35,259 nucleotides of DNA from a virus: IMG/VR virus record IMGVR_UViG_3300017727_000059, positions 1 to 35,259 of that record; one strand, given 5' to 3'. Below are positions 2,866 through 35,259 of the stretch, piece by piece. A program made the translations under genes and the position numbers. The notes beneath the pieces are model-generated. The model worked only from the letters and a program-made list of their open reading frames with translations, was not told the DNA's origin and searched no databases. Numbering within the stretch: the first letter of the stretch is position 1; every line of letters starts with the position of its first letter.

Positions 2866-3018
2866 ATGGAAGATTTGAAGTTGTATTTGCTAAATGCTTC
2901 TTCATTTGCTTTAGCCACTTTAAACTGGGTTGAGCCAATGTTAGAAATACTATTATTAAGTTTGACAATAGGTTATACTGTACACAAGTGGTCACTACTA
3001 CATAAGAAAAAGAAATGA
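2866..3018 (+). CDS. Small membrane protein, possible holin or lysis accessory protein
   Basis: The 50-aa product starts at ATG 2866. An in-frame TTG at 2818 would overlap the previous gene and is less likely. Hydrophobic stretches at about res. 6-20 and 23-39 (PMLEILLLSLTIGYTV) are followed by a lysine cluster HKKKK at the C-terminus, the layout of a small inner-membrane protein with a cytoplasmic basic tail. Its stop overlaps the amidase start by 4 nt (ATGA), so the two are likely translated together, which favours a lysis role. A clearer holin is encoded at 5686-6135, so this could be a second holin, an antiholin or an unrelated membrane peptide. Confidence 0.55.
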   Translation: MEDLKLYLLNASSFALATLNWVEPMLEILLLSLTIGYTVHKWSLLHKKKK

Positions 3019-3428
3019 GAAGTATAAATGAAATTATAATACATTGCTCTGCTACTAGAGAAGGTCAAGACATACCAGTAGAAACTATTAAAAAATGGCA
3101 TACTGAAGGTAGAGGCTGGACAGACATAGGCTACCATTTTTATGTAGAACTCGACGGCACCATTAAAAAAGGTAGAGATATAGATAAAACAGGAGCTCAT
3201 TGTAAGGGGCACAATAGAAATTCAATAGGGGTGTGTTATTGCGGAGGCGTAGAGGCTGATGGTAAGACGCCAAAGGATACTAGAACAGAAGTACAAAAAG
3301 AAAGCTTGTTACACGTCCTTAAAACGTTAATGGCGATGTATCCGCTTGCTACTATTTATTCACATAATGAGTTTGCTAATAAAGCATGCCCATCATTTGA
3401 CGCGACTAAAGAATATGAAAATCTCTGA
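3015..3428 (+). CDS. N-acetylmuramoyl-L-alanine amidase, T7 lysozyme-like endolysin
   Basis: Zn-dependent amidase (Amidase_2 / T7 lysozyme family) cutting the bond between muramic acid and L-alanine in peptidoglycan at lysis. The 137-aa protein is one compact catalytic domain. IIIHCSAT (res. 7-14) gives zinc ligand H10; DIGYHFYV (37-44) gives Y40; RNSIGVCYCGG (68-78) matches the T7 core; and SHNEFANKACPSFD (116-129) supplies ligands H117 and C125 and the catalytic-type K123. These correspond to T7 lysozyme H17, Y46, H122, K128 and C130. There is no signal peptide or cell-wall-binding domain, so it needs a holin. T7 lysozyme also inhibits T7 RNA polymerase; whether this protein has such a second role cannot be read from the sequence. 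The end overlaps the spanin-like gene by 14 nt. Confidence 0.95.
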   Translation: MRSINEIIIHCSATREGQDIPVETIKKWHTEGRGWTDIGYHFYVELDGTIKKGRDIDKTGAHCKGHNRNSIGVCYCGGVEADGKTPKDTRTEVQKESLLHVLKTLMAMYPLATIYSHNEFANKACPSFDATKEYENL

Positions 3429-3825: not shown

Positions 3826-3954
3826 ATGGCAACTAAAAGAAAATCAAAGAAAAAAAATCCTTGTTGGAAAGGTTATGAAGCTATAGGTATGAAGAAAAAA
3901 AATGGTAAAAAAGTGCCTAACTGTGTACCTGTTAAAGGAAAAAAGAAAAAATAA
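3826..3954 (+). CDS. Tiny basic protein with CWKGY...PNC motif, 42 aa
   Basis: A short frame from ATG 3826 to TAA 3952-3954, sharing one base with the next start (TAATG). The product is almost half lysine or arginine and contains PCWKGYEAIGMKKKNGKKV followed by PNCVPVK. A CWKGY/GMKKK/PNC segment of this type recurs in marine phage proteins, to my recollection; I cannot search to confirm it. The two cysteines 20 residues apart and the positive charge suggest nucleic-acid or anionic-surface binding, but no function is established. Confidence 0.6.
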   Translation: MATKRKSKKKNPCWKGYEAIGMKKKNGKKVPNCVPVKGKKKK

Positions 3955-4214
3955 TGGCAATAAGAAAAACTACAAAAGGTAAAGGTCGTAATTTTAGAAG
4001 CACAAAAGAAGGTGCAGGTATGACTGCTAAAGGTGTTAAAGAATATAGAAAGAAAAACCCTGGCAGCAAATTAAAAACAGCCGTAACCAAATGTGATGTT
4101 AAAGTGGGCACTAAAGCTTATAAAAGACAAAAAGCATTTTGTAGCAGATCAAAAAGCTGGGATGGCGAAAGAGGTAGAGCAGCTAGAAAAAGATGGTGTT
4201 GTTCTAGATTTTAA
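3954..4214 (+). CDS. DUF6321-type small basic phage protein
   Basis: The 86-aa protein starts at ATG 3954 in a TAATG junction. It carries the pattern I associate with DUF6321 of marine phages: KGRNFRSTKEGAGMTAKGV (res. 10-28), then KNPGSKLKTAVT (34-45), a KVGTKAYKRQKAFCSRSKS segment (50-68) and an ending AARKRWCCSRF. It is very basic with four cysteines (res. 48, 63, 82, 83) that might bind a metal. It has no membrane segment. The family's function is unknown; small size, charge and recurrence in phages suggest a virion-associated or nucleic-acid-binding role, which is inference. Confidence 0.7.
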   Translation: MAIRKTTKGKGRNFRSTKEGAGMTAKGVKEYRKKNPGSKLKTAVTKCDVKVGTKAYKRQKAFCSRSKSWDGERGRAARKRWCCSRF

Positions 4215-4224
4215 ATTTATTATT

Positions 4225-4383
4225 ATGAAAGACAAAGGATTAGGAGATACAATAGCTAGATTTACAAAAGCTTCAGGTATAAAAAAATTAGCTGATTCAA
4301 TACCAGGTGGCTGTGGATGCAAAAATAGGCAAAACATATTAAACGATTATTTTCCATATAAGCAAGAAAAAGATGGCGTTTAA
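4225..4383 (+). CDS. Small Cys-rich conserved phage protein, 52 aa
   Basis: The frame is open further upstream (4093) but that part is a shadow of the DUF6321 gene. The real start is probably ATG 4225, preceded by an AT-only leader. The product reads GLGDTIARFTKASGIKKLAD, then PGGCGCKNRQNILNDYFPYK. The helix-GCGC-helix-FPYK pattern is one I associate with small marine phage proteins of unknown function. The CxC pair could bind metal or form a disulfide. Its end overlaps the next start by 11 nt. Confidence 0.6.
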   Translation: MKDKGLGDTIARFTKASGIKKLADSIPGGCGCKNRQNILNDYFPYKQEKDGV

Positions 4384-4741
4384 GTTAAAAGCACCTTATA
4401 AAACTAATATAACTCCGGTTTATCATGTAGACGAGGAAGAAGGCGTTTTAGGGAGAGCCAATAATAATGGTACTATAACTGTCAATAACAAAGTTAAAAA
4501 TCCTGAACAACTTAAAGAAATTATAAGTCATGAAGAAGTTCATGTCGAACAGTTTAAAAAATTTGAAAAATCTAAAGGAAAAAAAGGTTTAGATTATAAT
4601 GACAAATACATTACGTGGAACGGTAATAAATACCCACGTAAAAACGGAAAAATAAAATATAATGGTAAGTGGATTGCTGAAGGATCTAAAAATTTTCCTT
4701 GGGAGAAAGAAGCTTACTCAAAAGAAAATAAACAAAAATAA
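4373..4741 (+). CDS. Small HExxH zincin-like protein, 122 aa
   Basis: The central motif ISHEEVHVEQF (res. 51-61) contains HEEVH (53-57), the zinc-binding HExxH of metallopeptidases. Downstream PWEKEAY (109-115) has glutamates E111 and E113, about 55 residues later, that could give the third ligand as in gluzincin-type folds. It has no signal peptide or membrane segment. The start overlaps the preceding gene by 11 nt. Small phage HExxH proteins of this size could be scaffold or virion proteases or peptidoglycan hydrolases. Activity is inferred from the motif only. It shares the opening MAFK with the protein at 5021-5686. Confidence 0.65.
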   Translation: MAFKLKAPYKTNITPVYHVDEEEGVLGRANNNGTITVNNKVKNPEQLKEIISHEEVHVEQFKKFEKSKGKKGLDYNDKYITWNGNKYPRKNGKIKYNGKWIAEGSKNFPWEKEAYSKENKQK

Positions 4742-4751
4742 AACAAATATT

Positions 4752-5021
4752 ATGCCTTATCCAAAAAAAGCACCAACAGCAAAAATGAAAGATAATCAAG
4801 ATGGTGGAGGAAATCAACCTGCCGCTGGAAAACAACTAATGGACAACCAAGCTGCGGCAATGAAAAGAGGTCCTATTTATAAAACAGACGCTCGTGTAGC
4901 TAGAGACTACGCTGCTAATGCTGCTTACGATGCTGAGCATGGTTATAAAAAAGAAGCTAAGTTTGAAAAGAAAAAATTAATGCACGTTGTAAATAGAATT
5001 GCTTGCCAAAGAAGTAAATAA
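4752..5021 (+). CDS. Hypothetical protein, 89 aa
   Basis: The frame is open from 4662, but the first ATG clear of the HExxH gene is 4752, preceded by an A/T-only leader, giving MPYPKKAPTAKMKDNQDGG. The N-terminal third is low complexity (Gly, Asn, Gln, Ala); the C-terminal half is charged and helix-prone (RDYAANAAYDAEHGYKKEAK, then a lysine-rich stretch and HVVNRIACQRSK). It is joined to the next gene by a TAATG junction at 5021. No family recognised. Confidence 0.6.
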   Translation: MPYPKKAPTAKMKDNQDGGGNQPAAGKQLMDNQAAAMKRGPIYKTDARVARDYAANAAYDAEHGYKKEAKFEKKKLMHVVNRIACQRSK

Positions 5022-5686
5022 TGGCATTTAAAATGAGTCCAATAGGTAAAAAGAAATGTTCTTATAGTCCTATGCAGAAAAAAGGTTTAATATCACCTAT
5101 AGCTTTAAAGACTAAATATTACGGTGAACCGGGTGAAAACACTAAGGTTACTGTGACTAAAACGCCAACAGCTACTGGCTTTAATGAAGAAACCAAAGAG
5201 GTTAAAACTGTAGTTCCTTTTGCTAATAAGCCTAAAGTTTCTATGCAGGAAGCTTATAAAAATCGTGACATGAACGCTTATGGTAACTTGAGTTTTCCAG
5301 AATACGAAAAAGAAGCTTTATCACAGTTGAAACCAAAAGTTACTACCAATGTTACTAATAGAGTTGTTGACAACAAACAGGAAGAACAACCTAATACAAA
5401 GCAAGAAGTAGATTACTCTTATTTAGATGGACTTGCTCAAACTCATGGTTATAAAGCTGGAGATGGTTTACAGTACGGTACTCAAATAAGTTCTACAGTT
5501 GGAAGTACTTTAAGAGGTAGTGAAGATCCAATGTCAAGAGAAATGACTCAATTAGAAGCTGATTATCTTAATAAGAAAGCTGGTAAAATAATATATGGAG
5601 GGCCAATGTCTAATTTGAACAAAAACAAAACAAAGAAAAATACTGCAAAACCTATAGTTAACAGGGTTATTAGAGCTTCATTTTAA
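5021..5686 (+). CDS. Hypothetical protein, 221 aa, hydrophilic
   Basis: Starts in a TAATG junction and opens MAFKMSPIGKKKCSYSPMQK, a short basic leader like that of the HExxH protein (MAFK). The rest is hydrophilic, rich in Thr, Lys, Asn and Pro, with a middle section (TKVTVTKTPTATGF, EVKTVVPFANKPK) that may be extended and a YLDGLAQTHGYKAGDGLQYG segment near res. 145-165. The C-terminus is basic. There is no membrane segment or enzyme motif. Located between small basic proteins and the holin; possibly a virion or scaffold-associated protein, but no function can be assigned. Confidence 0.65.
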   Translation: MAFKMSPIGKKKCSYSPMQKKGLISPIALKTKYYGEPGENTKVTVTKTPTATGFNEETKEVKTVVPFANKPKVSMQEAYKNRDMNAYGNLSFPEYEKEALSQLKPKVTTNVTNRVVDNKQEEQPNTKQEVDYSYLDGLAQTHGYKAGDGLQYGTQISSTVGSTLRGSEDPMSREMTQLEADYLNKKAGKIIYGGPMSNLNKNKTKKNTAKPIVNRVIRASF

Positions 5687-6135
5687 TGGAAAAGAAAACT
5701 TTTAAAGAAACAAAAATAGGAGCCTTTTTATCAAGTAAGGCTCCTAAGGTATTACAAGCTCTTGGAGACGTACTACCTAATCAAGGCACGCTAGGTGTAG
5801 TAAAAAATCTTATAACAAGTGATAATAAGATTAAGGCGGTTGATAAAGAGCAAGCTATGAAACTTATAGAACAAGATATAGCTGAAATGAAAGAAGTATC
5901 TAGTAGGTGGAGAGCTGATATGAAGTCTGATTCGTGGTTAAGTAAAAACACAAGACCGCTAGCTTTAGTATTTCTAACAGCATCAGCTGTTTTTATGATG
6001 GCTGTAGATTCTTTTCATTTGCAATTTGACGTGGATGACGCTTGGATAAACTTATTAAAAACTTTACTGGTAACAGTATATGTAGCGTACTTTGGTTCTA
6101 GGGGCGCAGAAAAAATAACAAAAATAAATAAATAA
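5686..6135 (+). CDS. Holin of the 3-TM / GTA-holin type
   Basis: Pore-forming inner-membrane protein expected to time lysis and release the amidase. The diagnostic segment is RWRADMKSDSWLSKNTRPL (res. 74-92), the charged helix and W-L-S-[RK]-N-x-R-P-L motif of the GTA holin family, followed by a hydrophobic segment (about 91-109), DSFHLQF, a second hydrophobic segment (about 119-138) and the closing FGSRGAEKI. Length 149 aa is usual for the family. An N-terminal helical part (res. 10-45) precedes it. The start is in a TAATG junction and the next gene begins 2 nt after the stop. This is the best holin candidate in the window. Confidence 0.85.
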   Translation: MEKKTFKETKIGAFLSSKAPKVLQALGDVLPNQGTLGVVKNLITSDNKIKAVDKEQAMKLIEQDIAEMKEVSSRWRADMKSDSWLSKNTRPLALVFLTASAVFMMAVDSFHLQFDVDDAWINLLKTLLVTVYVAYFGSRGAEKITKINK

Positions 6136-7890: not shown

Positions 7891-8092
7891 TATAGGCGCT
7901 GATTATAAAAATGAAGCTATGCATTACTCCACAGGCCAAGAGGTTTATGGAGGACACGTAATTAGTGATATTCTTTTTAAAAATGAAGATAATTCTTATA
8001 ATATTTTTATAAAAAAAAATAACGAAATACTTCCTTGGAAAAAGTTTAACTCTAATATGGCAGTTTCTGTAGAGTACGATCTTAAATACTAA
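7868..8092 (+). CDS. Hypothetical protein, 74 aa
   Basis: In-frame ATGs lie at 7835, 7856 and 7868; 7868 is chosen because it overlaps the upstream gene least (23 nt) and gives MSKIRKISIGADYKNEAMHY. The product looks like a small beta-rich protein (GQEVYGGHVISDILFKNED, SYNIFIKKNNEILPWKKF, MAVSVEYDLKY). A small, basic, nonmembrane protein with no recognised motif. It joins the co-chaperonin-like gene through a TAATG junction at 8092, so the two are probably co-translated. Confidence 0.6.
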   Translation: MSKIRKISIGADYKNEAMHYSTGQEVYGGHVISDILFKNEDNSYNIFIKKNNEILPWKKFNSNMAVSVEYDLKY

Positions 8093-8685
8093 TGAAAAGT
8101 TTATACCATTTTATCATTAAGCCATTAGATAAAAGATATGAAAATATAAAAAAGGTTGATGATAAAGAATTAATTATTAATTCAAGTATAGAAAATCATA
8201 TTTTTGTAAGCAAAAAAGCAGTTGTAGTTTCAACTCCAGCTGCTTATAAAACAAAAATTAAAACTGGTGATGAAGTTTACATTCATCATAATATCCTGCG
8301 TAGGTACTACAATCAAAAAGGCGTAGAAACAAATAGTGGAACTTATTTTAAAGAAGACTTATATTTTTGTTCTGCTGAGCAAATTTACATGTATAATTTA
8401 AAACCACATTTAAATTATTGTTTTATAAAACCATTAAAAAACCAAAGCTTCTTAGAGAGTAGAAAAGAACAACCTAATGTTGGTATAGTAAAATATACTA
8501 ACGACTCCTTAGAAGCTATAGGAATAACACCTGGAACACTTATTACGTTCACACCTAACTCAGAGTTTGAGTTTATAATAAATGGTGAACGACTTTATTG
8601 TATGAAATCTAATGATATAGCTTTAACTCATGAATACCAAGGAAACGAAAAAGAAAATAATCCAAGCTGGGCAAAAAGCAATTGA
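8092..8685 (+). CDS. GroES-like co-chaperonin candidate with two tandem barrel halves
   Basis: The 197-aa product appears to be an internal duplication of a GroES-like beta barrel. Half 1 (res. ~5-103) has FIIKPL (7-12), VVVSTP (44-49), IKTGDEVYIHHN (56-67), EDLYFCSAEQIY (88-99). Half 2 (~108-178) has the matching CFIKPL (110-115), VGIVKYT (130-136), ITPGTLITFTPN (145-156), NGERLYCMKSNDIAL (164-178). These parallel GroES elements: the opening R-P-L strand, the G-x-V-x-x-x-G/P turn, V-x-x-G-D-x-V and the closing E-E-V-L-I-M-x-E-S-D-I-L-A. No clear GroEL-binding IVL mobile loop is visible. The last ~20 residues overlap the next gene by 56 nt. It might be a gp31-like capsid-folding cofactor. Not a sure call: a tandem GroES-fold protein with another function remains possible. 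Confidence 0.6.
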   Translation: MKSLYHFIIKPLDKRYENIKKVDDKELIINSSIENHIFVSKKAVVVSTPAAYKTKIKTGDEVYIHHNILRRYYNQKGVETNSGTYFKEDLYFCSAEQIYMYNLKPHLNYCFIKPLKNQSFLESRKEQPNVGIVKYTNDSLEAIGITPGTLITFTPNSEFEFIINGERLYCMKSNDIALTHEYQGNEKENNPSWAKSN

Positions 8686-29854: not shown

Positions 29855-32800
29855 ATGACCCAACAAGAATATGCTAATGATTTATTAAGACAAGGAGTAT
29901 CAGAAGATGAGTTTGTTTTAAAAATGCAAGAATATAAACCTGAAGACAATTTTGTTGTTGAAGAGGAAGAAGTTGTTGATGTAGACGAGAAGACTAAAAA
30001 GGAAAAAAGAAAAGAAAAAAGAAAAAATAAAAAGCTAGAAGTAGAAGAAATTATACAACCAACACCAACTGGTTTTGATGCTTATGAAATAGAAACTGTT
30101 GAAGATGCTACGGGTAAAACTATGCTTAATATTTTAGACATAACTCCCCCACCAACCACCACAATTGTAGACGGTCAAGAAATAGGAAATTTAGAAGAGG
30201 TTGATAAATTTAATAATATTAAAGATTTTGTAAAAAGGTCTGACTCTCTTGATAAAATGCTAGGTCACAAAAAAAGACCTGAGCTAATAGAATCAACTTA
30301 TGGTACTTTAGACGCTTCTGGTGATGATTTAAAAGACTCTGAGGACACTTTTGAAGATTTTATGTTTAGTACTATAGAAGCTAATAAAACTTCAACAGAC
30401 GCTGAATTAGTAAAAATAATTTCAGATCAACTAAATAGAAAAAATCTAGGTGATTATCAATTTCTTAGAAAAGAATTTAATTCTATTGATAAAAACAAAG
30501 AGCAAGTAGCAAAGGGCATTTTAAGAAGCTACAAAATAGACAAAGGTGGATATAAATTAAGTAAAATAGCCCAAATAAAAACAAAAAATCCTATTGCAAA
30601 AGTAGAGGTTAGTGATGAAGACTCTAAAGAGTTAGGCATTTATAATAAACCTACTAAATATAAAGAAACTATAATAAAAATTGATCCAGGTGTAATGGTT
30701 CCTAAGGGACTTCAAAAAACAGCTAAAGAAAATGAGTATAAGATAAAGCAAATAGTACCACAAGAAGAAGCTAAACAATATGTCAATCAATATATTAATG
30801 AAGAGGGTGATATTATTGTAGGTGAGCCATACGTATTAAACACCAATTTAAAAGAGGTTAATAAATTTTTACAAGGAGATAGAGCTATATCAGCTGAACA
30901 AGCTGAAGTAGATATAATTCAATCTCAATCATTTTACAATAATAAATTAGAAGATTTAAACTCTAAGTTAGAAGCTGCTACAAATAAAGAAGAAGAAAAT
31001 AAAATACAAGAAGCTATTAATCAAACTCAAGAAAATCAAAATTCAGCCTTGGTTGAGTATAATACTTTAGTTAACACTTTGGGGATGACTAGAGCGGGTG
31101 AGTTATCACGTGAAGATTTTTTTGAGCTAATTAACCAGTTTCAAGGTAGAGTAGGAGATGCGTATAAAGATCAAAATTGGTATAGTAACAACTGGAATAA
31201 TGCAGGAGCAGGTTTTGCAAATAAAACCTTTAAAAAGAAAATACAAAGTTTAAATGATAATTTTTCTGCTTATGGATTTGGTTTTGAATATTCTAATAGA
31301 AATTTTTCGTCAGGTAGAAAGAACAGCACTAGAGTTGGTGACAGTATAATAGCAGTTAAAGATCCACTTTACTTAGATGGTAAAATTGACTTTGTTGAAA
31401 CAGCAAAAGCACTTGGATACAAAGATGAAAAAGGTTCTTCAATTAATAGAGAAGGTAGAGCTTTAGACTGGTTAAGTCAAAATAACTTTTTAAAAGCTGT
31501 AGAAGTAGACAAAGGTATAGGTAGTGTTTTTAGACACTTAAATAACGATCCTGATTCTTATATACTTGGTGAAGACCCGTCTAGAACTAGAGATGAAGTT
31601 ATAGACATGATGAATTGGGTTAATAAAAATAAAGGTGAATATAGTACAGAGGTAAAAGCTTCTCCTAATTCTTCTGGTATAGTATCAGAAAGAAATGCAT
31701 CAGCTACAGGTCTTGCTCAGCAAAAAGAAACTAATGCTACAAAATCACTTATTGTTAAAGCTCTTAAAAACACAGCTAAAAATCTTCCTAACACTGTTAA
31801 CAAGTTACAAAAAATACAACAAACTATAAGCGAAAAACAAGAAGGTATAAAAGGTTTAGAAATTGATGTTGAAAACAGAAAGTTAAATTTAAAAACTACC
31901 GCGGGTAATATTAAAAAAACAACCGCATCTTTAGAAGCTGATTCAAAAACAATAGAAAGTGAATTTTTACAAAAAGAATCTTTAATTAGAGATGAAATAA
32001 AAGAATTACAAAACTCTTATCAAAATTTAATAGATAAAGCTAAAACTGAAACTGAACAAAAAATACTAATTGGAGAGTTCAATTCTAAACAACAACAGAT
32101 TGTTGACAATTTTGAACCAGAATACAAAGATTATTTATCTAAAATAAAAGATTGGGAGCAAAGAAGAGAAGTTGTTGCTGAAGAATATGAAAACTATAAA
32201 GTTCAATTTGCAGAAGACGAAGTTGAATTTAACAAATTAAACGAAAAGTATAAAGATTTAAACGTATCTATAGCTGATTTTAAAAATACAAGATTAACTC
32301 TTTTAAACATGTTCGATAATATAGAAGCTAATCAGTTAGCCGCTTCTATACTTAATACAAGAACTATGTTTGATTTAGATCAGCAAGCTAAATCTATGGA
32401 AAAAGCAGAAGGCTCTGGTAATTGGTTTAAAGCCATAAGAAACTCTTTTATAAATGACTTTATGACAACAACCGCTGGTAGAGTAATTGGTTGGGGTAAT
32501 GTTGCTTCTTATTTTTTAGAAGCAGAAAAAGCTATTAAAAAATCTTTTAACGCTTGGGATGATGCAGATCAAAAATCTTATGACTATTACAATAGTAATA
32601 TAAAATTCTCACAGGCGCAAGCTAATAGAGATGGTAAGGCAATAGCTGAAATATTCTCAAGTAAAGACATAGACGATAACTATACTCAAGCCTTTGCTGA
32701 AAGCACTATGGGAGGTATAGCCAATACTATAGTTACAATGTTTGCATCTACGATGGCTCAAGGTGGTAGATCAGGTATAAATCCATTTTCAAAAGGATGG

Positions 32801-35259
32801 GCTGGAGCTAGTAAATTGTCTGCTAGTTTTTTAGGTAGAGGTTTTTATAATTTAAATATGTCTAACAGTTTAGACAAACTAGAAACTGCTAAATCAAGCT
32901 TTGTAGACGGTAGAGCTAATAAATATATACAACAAGGTTATGATGCTAATAAAGCTAAACAACTTGCATTAAAAGAGTATAACGAAAAAGATACTAATAT
33001 GTCAAGACAAGTGTACTTGACAACGCAAGCAACTGTTGAAGGTGCTCTTGAATATGTAGGAGCTAGAATACTAGGAGGAGGATTAAAAATAAGTGGAAGA
33101 GCTGCTAAGAAAGTTACTGACTACGTAATGAAAGTGCTTCCTAAAGGCAAGTACACAGCAAAAACTTTAAGAGCTGAGATTATAAAAGTTCTTGGTCCAA
33201 AACTTACTTCTTATATATACTCAGCAGGTTTAACAGCAGGTATGGGTATTGATGAAACTACTACAGAATTTTTACAAGAGTTTTCTAGTATAGGTTTAGA
33301 TAATGCTTATGATCACATAACTGGTATAGAAATGGAAACTCCAGATATTACTAGTGATGAGTTCAGGGATGATATGATACACTTGGCAAAGGTTTCTTTT
33401 GGCTCTGCAGTTATTTTAGGTGGTTACAGTGCAGTTGGGCAAGGTCAAAACATGCGAATAGATTTAAAAAATAATCTAAAAGATGCTTACGCAACTGAGT
33501 TAAGAGCAAGAGACATGTCTAACATGATGCGTAATGAAAAAATGGTTAATACAGCTAAACAAAACCTTCAAAACCAATTAAATGACGAAGCTAACCCTAT
33601 GGATATTAACGAGTATCAAAGGCAGTTAACTAATCTTAATAATACGGTAGAGGCTTTTAAATCTATTGAACCAGGTTTTAACGGTGTTTCTACTGTTCAA
33701 ATGGCAAACATTCAATTAGACATTAATAATTTAAAAACAGAGTCAAAGCAAGAGACAATTTCAGCTGCCAGAAAAAATGAAATTAAAGAAGAAATTAAAA
33801 CTTTAGAAGCTCAGCAAATAGAAATTCACAACAATCCTAATAGTAAAGCTGAAATAAAAGATAGAGGAAAAGCTTACGAGTATAATGTAGAAACAGCTAA
33901 AGTTATAGCTGATAAAACAGGTGCTGATGTTATAGTTGCTAAGTCAATTGAAGAATTTACAGACAAGACCTTGGAGATGGGTGAAGATTTAAGAGTCGTT
34001 GATAAAGATGGTAAAACAAAATCTTACGAAGGTGGTCAGTTGTCTGATGGTTTATTTCTAACTGATGGAAAGACTATAATAATAAATGAAGAAGTAGCTA
34101 AAAATCTAGGTAGTATATCCGCTGGTACTCACGAAGTTCTTCACTTTATAACTCAACAAGCTTTTCAAGGTAACACTAAAGATAAGTCTTCTATAATTGA
34201 AGAGTTTAAAAATAATCTTTCAGACAATGAATTTGCTATAGTTGAGGCAAGAATAGAAAAAAATTATTCAGGAGAAGATTCTAATACTGAAGAATGGTTT
34301 AATGCTTTTCACGATGCTGTAGTTAGTGGAGATATAAAATTTAAAGACAATGTATTTACTAAAATAGGAGGTTTTTTAAGTGATAAAGTATTCTCTCCTT
34401 TAGGTTTAAAAAGTGGATTTGGATCTGGAAAACAAGCTTACAACTTTATAAAAGACTATAGTGTAGAAACTAGAGAAATTATAGAAGGTAAAAGAAAGCC
34501 AGGTGAATTTAGTGAAAAGGTAACTAAAGTTATAGATAAACTTCCTAAAGCAGAAACAGGTAAAGCAACTAAAAAAGTAGCAAAATCTTCTACTATAAGA
34601 ACTACATTAGATGAATTAGTTCAAAATCCTGACGGAAGTAGAAAGTTTAATAATAAAAACGAATTTCAAACTAGTGAAGAGTTTGGCAAGATGTGGGAAG
34701 AAATAGGTAGAAAAGGTACTGAAGAAAGTCCTAACATATTTGAAGGAACAATAAGATCTATAGGTAAAAATTCTGGAGTTCCTGATATAGCTATAAATGA
34801 TTTTGTAACTAAAGTAAAGCAAAGACTTCAAGAAAAGTCTATGGGTGCTACTGAAAAAGGTGGTTTTGACCCAAGTAAAAACGAAAGTCTATTTGGTTAT
34901 TTCTTTGGTAAAAACAGATCAGGACAAACCCTAGTTCAGTTGGCCACTGGAGATGTTGCTAACACTTATAAAAAGCAGCCGAAGGGTGTTTCAATGGATC
35001 AGACTAATCAAGATGGAAAAACATTTGAGTTTGAAGATACAACTATTGATTTAATTAAAGACATAGATGACGGTAATACACAAGCTCCTAAGTCTAAGCT
35101 TCGTAGAAACCTTAAGTTACCAGGCAACAAAAAAATTGGTGAACAAGAGATTAGTGAATTAGAAATAATAGCAGATCAGGTTTTAAAAGATCCATCTCTT
35201 CCAGACCCTAGTGATAAAACTTATAAGAAAACTTTTGATAAAATAGCAGGTAAAAAAGC
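29855..35259 (+). CDS. Giant internal virion protein with HExxH zincin motif (3' truncated, at least 1801 aa)
   Basis: Open from ATG 29855, 2 nt after the previous stop, to the window edge without a stop. Order: an acidic N-terminus then a lysine cluster (res. ~40-65); a long region without motifs; coiled-coil ~640-810 (LQKIQQTISEKQEGIKGLEI); helical hydrophobic segments near 953-968 (GIANTIVTMFASTMA) and ~1120-1144 (SYIYSAGLTAGMGIDETTTE) and ~1181-1195, a layout of giant ejected proteins that contact the inner membrane; then a second coiled region. At res. 1423-1434 AGTHEVLHFITQ has the metallopeptidase HEVLH (1426-1430), with E1479/E1480 in EEWFNAF about 50 residues later as third ligand candidates. 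Third gene of the likely ejection series, comparable to T7 gp16. Protease or other hydrolase activity is inferred from the motif only. Confidence 0.75.
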   Translation, partial: MTQQEYANDLLRQGVSEDEFVLKMQEYKPEDNFVVEEEEVVDVDEKTKKEKRKEKRKNKKLEVEEIIQPTPTGFDAYEIETVEDATGKTMLNILDITPPPTTTIVDGQEIGNLEEVDKFNNIKDFVKRSDSLDKMLGHKKRPELIESTYGTLDASGDDLKDSEDTFEDFMFSTIEANKTSTDAELVKIISDQLNRKNLGDYQFLRKEFNSIDKNKEQVAKGILRSYKIDKGGYKLSKIAQIKTKNPIAKVEVSDEDSKELGIYNKPTKYKETIIKIDPGVMVPKGLQKTAKENEYKIKQIVPQEEAKQYVNQYINEEGDIIVGEPYVLNTNLKEVNKFLQGDRAISAEQAEVDIIQSQSFYNNKLEDLNSKLEAATNKEEENKIQEAINQTQENQNSALVEYNTLVNTLGMTRAGELSREDFFELINQFQGRVGDAYKDQNWYSNNWNNAGAGFANKTFKKKIQSLNDNFSAYGFGFEYSNRNFSSGRKNSTRVGDSIIAVKDPLYLDGKIDFVETAKALGYKDEKGSSINREGRALDWLSQNNFLKAVEVDKGIGSVFRHLNNDPDSYILGEDPSRTRDEVIDMMNWVNKNKGEYSTEVKASPNSSGIVSERNASATGLAQQKETNATKSLIVKALKNTAKNLPNTVNKLQKIQQTISEKQEGIKGLEIDVENRKLNLKTTAGNIKKTTASLEADSKTIESEFLQKESLIRDEIKELQNSYQNLIDKAKTETEQKILIGEFNSKQQQIVDNFEPEYKDYLSKIKDWEQRREVVAEEYENYKVQFAEDEVEFNKLNEKYKDLNVSIADFKNTRLTLLNMFDNIEANQLAASILNTRTMFDLDQQAKSMEKAEGSGNWFKAIRNSFINDFMTTTAGRVIGWGNVASYFLEAEKAIKKSFNAWDDADQKSYDYYNSNIKFSQAQANRDGKAIAEIFSSKDIDDNYTQAFAESTMGGIANTIVTMFASTMAQGGRSGINPFSKGWAGASKLSASFLGRGFYNLNMSNSLDKLETAKSSFVDGRANKYIQQGYDANKAKQLALKEYNEKDTNMSRQVYLTTQATVEGALEYVGARILGGGLKISGRAAKKVTDYVMKVLPKGKYTAKTLRAEIIKVLGPKLTSYIYSAGLTAGMGIDETTTEFLQEFSSIGLDNAYDHITGIEMETPDITSDEFRDDMIHLAKVSFGSAVILGGYSAVGQGQNMRIDLKNNLKDAYATELRARDMSNMMRNEKMVNTAKQNLQNQLNDEANPMDINEYQRQLTNLNNTVEAFKSIEPGFNGVSTVQMANIQLDINNLKTESKQETISAARKNEIKEEIKTLEAQQIEIHNNPNSKAEIKDRGKAYEYNVETAKVIADKTGADVIVAKSIEEFTDKTLEMGEDLRVVDKDGKTKSYEGGQLSDGLFLTDGKTIIINEEVAKNLGSISAGTHEVLHFITQQAFQGNTKDKSSIIEEFKNNLSDNEFAIVEARIEKNYSGEDSNTEEWFNAFHDAVVSGDIKFKDNVFTKIGGFLSDKVFSPLGLKSGFGSGKQAYNFIKDYSVETREIIEGKRKPGEFSEKVTKVIDKLPKAETGKATKKVAKSSTIRTTLDELVQNPDGSRKFNNKNEFQTSEEFGKMWEEIGRKGTEESPNIFEGTIRSIGKNSGVPDIAINDFVTKVKQRLQEKSMGATEKGGFDPSKNESLFGYFFGKNRSGQTLVQLATGDVANTYKKQPKGVSMDQTNQDGKTFEFEDTTIDLIKDIDDGNTQAPKSKLRRNLKLPGNKKIGEQEISELEIIADQVLKDPSLPDPSDKTYKKTFDKIAGKK

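Follow-up and report, generated by a model that had tools for sequence, protein, structure and literature searches.

What is a protein of 122 residues with the elements of a zinc peptidase doing among the lysis genes of a phage? The question is raised by a gene at 4373-4741 of the window, by which we mean the whole stretch of DNA that was analysed, a 35-kb virus record of 35,259 nucleotides. A sequence-only reading had described the gene product as a small HExxH protein with SHEEVHVEQF and PWEKEAY, a minimal zinc peptidase, and had offered two roles for it: maturation protease of the head or peptidoglycan endopeptidase. Translation of 4373-4741 on the plus strand confirms the description, with both strings present in the 122-aa product. 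The gene, its motifs and the neighbours that bear on its role are these:

3015-3428, plus strand: N-acetylmuramoyl-L-alanine amidase (endolysin; Pfam Amidase_2 4.2e-15, phrog_822 E 2.6e-58)
4373-4741, plus strand: very probable stand-alone gluzincin-type zinc peptidase, 122 aa (ORF translation, family searches and model)
4373-4390, plus strand: the N-terminal 'tag' shared with other proteins, here MAFKLK and in the family at large M[AG]FK[LM] (sequence comparison)
4529-4543, plus strand: HEEVH (H53, E54, H57), the predicted two zinc ligands and general base (HExxH in 208 of 208 domains)
4697-4705, plus strand: PWE (P109, W110, E111), with E111 the predicted third zinc ligand (conservation; last helix of the model)
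5021-5686, plus strand: 221-aa neighbour with the same N-terminus as the peptidase (MAFKMSPIGKKKCSYSPMQKK)
5686-6135, plus strand: holin (phrog_3427 E 3.8e-20)
29855-35259, plus strand: giant ORF, 1801 aa seen, running off the window end (a fused giant occupies the equivalent position in contig G009)

The peptidase gene is flanked by the amidase and the holin, and its earlier placement among lysis genes is correct for this window. The 221-aa neighbour at 5021 gave a best PHROG match of E 0.92 and was without a tblastn match in phages. The surroundings also include GroEL-like (130-1931) and GroES-like genes, recognised from sequence and annotated relatives; a DUF6321 protein at 3954-4214 (Pfam 1.9e-8), a domain for which no mention was found in the literature searched; and a further protein weakly similar to Cpn10 at 8092-8685 (Pfam E 0.04), the same place being annotated as a co-chaperonin in Panino.

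The ORF at 4373-4741 is genuine and evolves under purifying selection. Chance does not explain it, since relatives were recovered in 133 of 146 candidate stretches from the viral collection and, using an alignment query with search patterns that exclude the active site, at least 573 among 599 stretches. The first and second stretch sets overlap, with 24 of the 74 in the second lying on contigs of the first, and some of the ORFs counted as tagged or as peptidases may have been created by the greedy gene caller used. The peptidase family is thus common in uncultured phage contigs. An ungapped, codon-by-codon estimate of dN/dS fell between 0.09 and 0.19 in all seven pairs tried, and the minus strand across the gene is interrupted by stop codons.

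Direct homologues of the window peptidase were absent from cultured phages by tblastn, and none of 92 pattern-matching stretches from bacterial genomes encodes a relative. Searching the PDB by sequence gave three chance-level matches and nothing significant, while no Pfam family reached cut-off, with just YlaC and PhiKZ_VTX appearing up to E 10. In BFVD a single 301-aa protein from an uncultured virus matched below 1e-3, with SprT-like and phiM12 proteins among the weaker matches. One relative, L402, has two Pfam matches, both sub-threshold: Peptidase_M78 (E 0.018) and DUF6782, a family of putative metallopeptidases (E 0.00086).

Conservation across the family is concentrated where a zinc peptidase would need it. 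HExxH is retained in all 208 distinct domains recovered from the IMG/VR loci with a family profile that itself includes the motif (four short or partial domains were set aside; the 38 loci L243-L280 were included), and homologues lacking the H-E-H residues, named by the sequence-only reading as an observation that would count against it, were not found in this set. A WE follows HExxH in 199 of the 208, the exceptions being three with PHE, five with YE and one cut by its contig end. The later glutamate, usually within PWE and equivalent to E111, is kept in 207 of 207 complete domains when the sequences are read by eye, and P, W and E are each invariant across 62 aligned family sequences. A catalytically dead relic was considered and dropped, because active-site residues are kept across the family.

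An AlphaFold model of the window peptidase, built on the 62-sequence alignment (pLDDT 82.8, pTM 0.69), runs from three short strands through a long HExxH helix (residues 44-66) and more strands to a last helix (109-120) that bears E111. Its top VIA-align matches were IrrE/PprI structures (Z 6.5, 6.3 and 6.2; IrrE 3dti reaches 6.5 over 84 residues at 3.1 A), with 6mdx (titled protease dependent DPC repair) at 5.3, Wss1 at 4.6, ArdC at 4.5 and abylysin at 4.4. The combination of sheet, active-site helix and Glu helix that characterises gluzincins is therefore present, with moderate agreement (Z about 4-6.5). Every Z value is below 8, a range that VIA-align warns may reflect a common arrangement, and the case therefore rests on the fold taken together with three conserved ligand positions. 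Foldseek of the model against the PDB gave no E below 1. An ArdC-like anti-restriction function was dropped, its Z being no better than for other gluzincins.

Conservation and the model make it very probable that the window protein is a gluzincin-type zinc protease, and the family and active site assignment is well supported. The structure prediction and profile search that had been proposed as checks returned a gluzincin-like model and a family with HExxH and the later Glu, and from these the description as a minimal zinc peptidase holds. A single zinc ion would be bound through H53, H57 and E111, and E54 is the predicted general base.

Several known systems resemble this enzyme in part. Minigluzincins/selecases, IrrE/PprI and Wss1 (4jiu, 4qhf, 3dti, 5xbn, 6mdx) have a similar small gluzincin core, with Z about 4-6.5 over 68-85 residues, but there is no significant sequence match to them and Foldseek E values exceed 1. 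The window peptidase does match phrog_16532 (E 6.7e-7), and proteins of the Caulobacter phage Cr30, the Xanthomonas phage XacN1 and the Tenacibaculum phage pT24 match the same profiles (phrog_16532 and phrog_10499); HExxH and PWE are common to both groups, but the Cr30, XacN1 and pT24 proteins are without the M[AG]FK[LM] N-terminus and have another gene context. Metallopeptidase domains occur in phage polyvalent proteins and are described, in the available text of Iyer et al. 2017 (PMC5512222), as having HExxH and a Glu on the next helix, as occupying C-terminal positions among others and as falling into 12 clades. The window family is like them in carrying HExxH on one helix and Glu on a later one, and in serving, in six giants (8 of 53 loci), as the C-terminal domain of a phage protein of very large size, with the window copy standing alone. 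It is unlike them in being mostly stand-alone, at about 100-145 aa and with its own N-terminal motif, and in reaching no Pfam family above cut-off. Sequence and model together indicate that the family is a real, conserved and probably active small zinc peptidase, and probably the stand-alone tagged form of a polyvalent-like gluzincin.

The phage to which the window belongs has both named and uncultured relatives. Its TerL is 64.8% identical to that of the uncultured podovirus MW202828 and 46% to those of Flavobacterium elemo phages; the TerL matches listed further include Maribacter, Cellulophaga and Tenacibaculum phages, and end with uncultured cr273_1 and cr272_1 (E 6e-6), which we take to be crAss-like phages. 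Among 155 stretches, the window included, the peptidase cluster is found in 148, the holin/6138-type in 153, the GroES-like 8092 type in 121, TerL in 115, GroES in 95 and GroEL in 88, and in sampled loci the peptidase sits in a module between GroEL/GroES and TerL. The peptidase family profile matches none of eight named TerL relatives over their whole genomes (elemoF, MW202828, Panino, phi38:1, Calle_1, Gundel_1, phi13:2 and phi18:3); in a control run covering three of these eight negatives, it recovered the gene from every one of the 11 uncultured records known to carry it.

This distribution bears directly on the idea that the peptidase matures the head by cutting scaffold or capsid. The idea had been raised on the grounds that no serine prohead protease is visible elsewhere, and we likewise found none when window proteins were compared with PHROGs, a scan of all but GroEL, GroES and the short ORFs at 2337, 2693, 2818, 3826 and 7835, with 8092 searched by Pfam alone and the giant ORF incomplete. 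A separate 379-aa gene between the portal and capsid genes, a scaffold by position, also speaks for it. Nevertheless, the capsid proteins of MW202828, Panino and elemoF are 50, 46 and 40% identical to that of the window, and the peptidase is absent from all three of these named genomes, so that its presence wherever a homologous head is made fails as a rule. A protease needed for this head should not be missing from those phages, which makes head maturation unlikely. Further against it, the portal of MW202828 is annotated as P22-like, and a P22-type head is not known to need a maturation protease; large phages, phiM12 and Cr30 among them, encode remote homologues of the peptidase and are presumably T4-like, with a gp21-type protease of their own. 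The peptidase has no Pfam or PHROG match to prohead-protease (assemblin-like serine) families and carries a zincin motif instead. We regard this role as unsupported and highly improbable.

Little also supports a peptidoglycan endopeptidase, whether it would aid lysis or cell-wall penetration at entry. The adjoining amidase and holin favour such an enzyme, as do the wall-degrading domains that polyvalent proteins may bear according to the available text of PMC5512222. Set against these are structural matches to protein-cutting gluzincins, the lack of any Pfam match up to E 10 to the peptidoglycan peptidases M15, M23 and NlpC/P60, the apparent lack of a signal peptide or transmembrane segment (judged by eye), the C-terminal position of the domain in six giants, and its place outside the lysis region in G009. 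The amidase is moreover a separate gene, whose cluster occurs in just 31 of the 155 stretches against 148 for the peptidase cluster, these stretches being of limited length. We give the endopeptidase a low probability, and consider the lysis and head-maturation readings unlikely.

The fusions themselves came from a scan seeded with L058, in which 8 of 53 loci have the peptidase at the very C-terminal end of a giant ORF (2054-2629 aa). Merging two near-identical pairs (98.8% and 97.6% over the giant) leaves six distinct fused giants. HExxH is intact in all eight fused domains and PWE in the seven that are not cut by a contig end (giant L312 runs off its contig); each of the eight records has a single family match and no second peptidase copy, and in a ninth record the only copy is frame-broken. 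Because the several hundred residues preceding the peptidase are homologous among the fused giants, one ancestral fusion is possible, and the six may all descend from it. In G009, the genes from GroEL through GroES, holin, cpn10, TerL, portal, scaffold and MCP and onward into the virion-protein block follow the order of the window; the stand-alone peptidase is gone, and the fused giant occupies the place of the window's own giant ORF. Other contigs encode the giant core with no peptidase attached, and it ends there in either a short basic tail or a Cys-rich segment; in giants L193, L209, L212, L172, L264 and L265 the peptidase slot holds a Cys-rich segment of the CTAIKSNGKRCKNKTENKNKKCYAHQ type.

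Part of the giant core profile matches gp74 of the Tenacibaculum phage Gundel_1 (E 3.6e-11, hhalign probability 94.6, 161 columns), a protein annotated as structural and reported in a paper whose text does not contain the term 'mass spectrometry'. In phi18:3 the final giant gene, gp123, bears a virion structural protein label from MS/MS and is a positional equivalent only: the core profile matches neither it nor elemoF gp88, and the virion labels of these two proteins therefore carry over by position only. Pfam gave nothing below E 0.01 for fused giants L305, L306, L308, L309 and L314 or for the window giant, and DUF3293 for elemoF gp88. A 985-aa part of the L058 giant had no tblastn match in cultured phages, and an AlphaFold model of the core (pLDDT 57.8) was too poor for a structure search. 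The window giant ORF carries a zincin motif of its own, HEVLH at 34130-34144, and elemoF gp88 (HEIFH) and Gundel_1 gp74 likewise contain HExxH.

The giant fusions, together with the published polyvalent metallopeptidases and the large cargo proteins that crassviruses possess (available text of PMC5512222 and PMC10172136, respectively), hint that the peptidase travels inside the virus particle instead of lysing the cell or maturing the shell. Some polyvalent metallopeptidases are tied to head packaging, with examples both packaged unprocessed and processed before packaging (PMC5512222, same text). The peptidase would work like these domains, carried in the virion as one of two cargo forms: a small separate protein with M[AG]FK[LM] or, in other contigs, the C-terminal domain of the giant protein encoded in the virion-protein block. 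It would then cut a protein substrate either in the particle, as co-packaged cargo, or just after injection, as a host protein. We put the chances that the peptidase is such a polyvalent-like gluzincin, with a virion location and a cargo or host substrate that we infer, at about even. The remote homologues in Cr30, XacN1 and pT24 count against virion cargo, having mostly hypothetical neighbours and no clear virion block; that of pT24 lies ~2.4 kb before a gene annotated as head completion. No virion proteomics of a carrier phage was found in the literature searched, which did not target every carrier; in the available text on Baltic Flavobacterium phages (PMC7077304) 'proteom' occurs just within a reference. 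Portions of PMC10136315 (crassvirus cargo), PMC8776804 (North Sea flavophages) and PMC4559962 (Wss1) were also part of the background literature.

Alternatively, the peptidase could be expressed late and act on a host protein within the cell, never being packaged, either by cleaving a regulator in the manner of IrrE/ImmA or by removing DNA-bound proteins in the manner of Wss1/SPRTN. The nearest folds are indeed IrrE/PprI and Wss1-type proteases, the Pfam matches of L402 point the same way, and in both Cr30 and pT24 a DNA ligase gene is found ~2 kb from the remote homologue. Its C-terminal fusion in six distinct giants and its location between GroEL/GroES and TerL in sampled loci both argue against an enzyme confined to the cell, which we consider unlikely while granting it some weight.

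Returning to virion cargo, the shared N-terminus deserves the closest attention of all. Of 1768 distinct ORF products from the peptidase-selected stretches, 176 start with M[AGS][FYW]K[ML], and the same string begins at just 5 of 6134 internal Met. The 176 comprise 85 peptidases, out of 105 distinct ones, and a further 91 proteins that fall into 28 BLAST clusters; the latter are mostly short, richer in Lys (17.6% vs 11.1%) and poorer in hydrophobics (23.0% vs 32.1%). A DNA-pattern scan for M[AG][FY]KMKG starts found at least 120 stretches; the 80 contigs listed contain 102 open frames, none below 20 aa and with a median of 120. The peptidase is present in 71 of these 80 records, or 56 of 65 when counting contigs with a non-peptidase tagged protein; in the other nine (records of 7.6-120 kb) there is none. 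Tag copies lie within 7.5 kb of the peptidase in 52 of 76 cases, against 20.1 expected if uniform, the rest being farther off; this count takes contigs as linear, draws mostly on records chosen for the tag and leaves out six of the 35 records of one set, five without and one with a partial peptidase. In the window, one other tagged ORF accompanies the peptidase, and among the eight relatives that are cultured or named, two have a single MGFKI start each. Comparing another tagged protein with cultured phages gave one chance-level match, and no mention of MAFKMKG was found in the literature searched.

Copies of the tag occur 7-16 residues inside proteins without a preceding Met (for example L042, L047, L054, L135, L143 and L147), and its codons vary synonymously; on both grounds it looks like a protein motif and not merely a start-site motif. 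In L164, a DUF6321-like domain of the same kind as that at 3954-4214 of the window, recognised by eye, comes after the tag, which suggests that the tag is modular.

The capsid targeting sequence of T4 is N-terminal. The T4 internal proteins are diverse, and common to them is just a conserved targeting sequence (available text of PMC3012670); the tagged proteins likewise share an N-terminus despite their diversity, a resemblance known here from sequence alone, and their tag has another sequence. By this analogy, M[AG]FKMKG might be a virion-loading address, unrelated to that of T4, with which uncultured marine flavophages load dozens of unrelated, fast-evolving, Lys-rich small proteins together with an identically marked zinc peptidase. 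A tag would be needless where the peptidase is fused to a giant and, consistent with this, none of the nine fused or frame-broken records has a tagged start (by a pattern covering Met and the Leu codon CTG). The proposal is a tentative one, and rather doubtful as it stands. The tag may instead be only a lineage habit, arising from paralogy or translation context and having no targeting role, a possibility that falls somewhat short of an even chance and is not exclusive with the other readings. Among 80 TerL relatives returned, the 23 nearest with enough upstream sequence include 18 with the peptidase; another tagged product occurs in just two of the 18, one of them doubtful (MSWKL), and 16 have none in the stretch. 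The peptidase therefore does not need the tagged set, in keeping with a habit of the lineage, and BLAST clustering does split some paralogues, clusters 18 and 53 being near-identical over their first 20 residues. On the other side, the 102 tagged proteins still form 53 clusters after removal of their first 14 residues, and a mere habit does not sit well with internal copies lacking Met or with synonymous codon variation.

If the virion-cargo reading is true, an uncharacterised family widespread in marine phage contigs gains a concrete mechanism, apart from lysis and head maturation, and the timing of phage metallopeptidase action, before packaging or after injection, becomes testable on an enzyme of 122 aa instead of 2500. 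If the tag is indeed an address, the N-terminal motif could be looked for in uncultured phages as a simple sequence handle on virion cargo and on proteins with a possible counter-defence role.

Other sequence features recur in these proteins. In the 89 non-peptidase tagged proteins, SP[hydrophobic]K occurs 31 times, compared with a mean of 1.7 in shuffles, and DGRxxS six times, compared with 0.17. A longer form, DGRxxS(S)xFQ, recurs in tagged ORFs such as L186, L196, L231, L238 and L241; the peptidase L062 also has a motif of this type, and ends in DGRAQSAAFQKK. In L368, L375, L376, L378 and L395 the peptidase has a tail of ~270-370 aa, seemingly of low complexity and with no Pfam match above cut-off. 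In L146, L148 and L154 it is followed by a PAP2 phosphatase-like domain within one ORF of ~287 aa; in L146 this domain matches Pfam PAP2 at E 5e-9, and in the other two it is recognised by resemblance.
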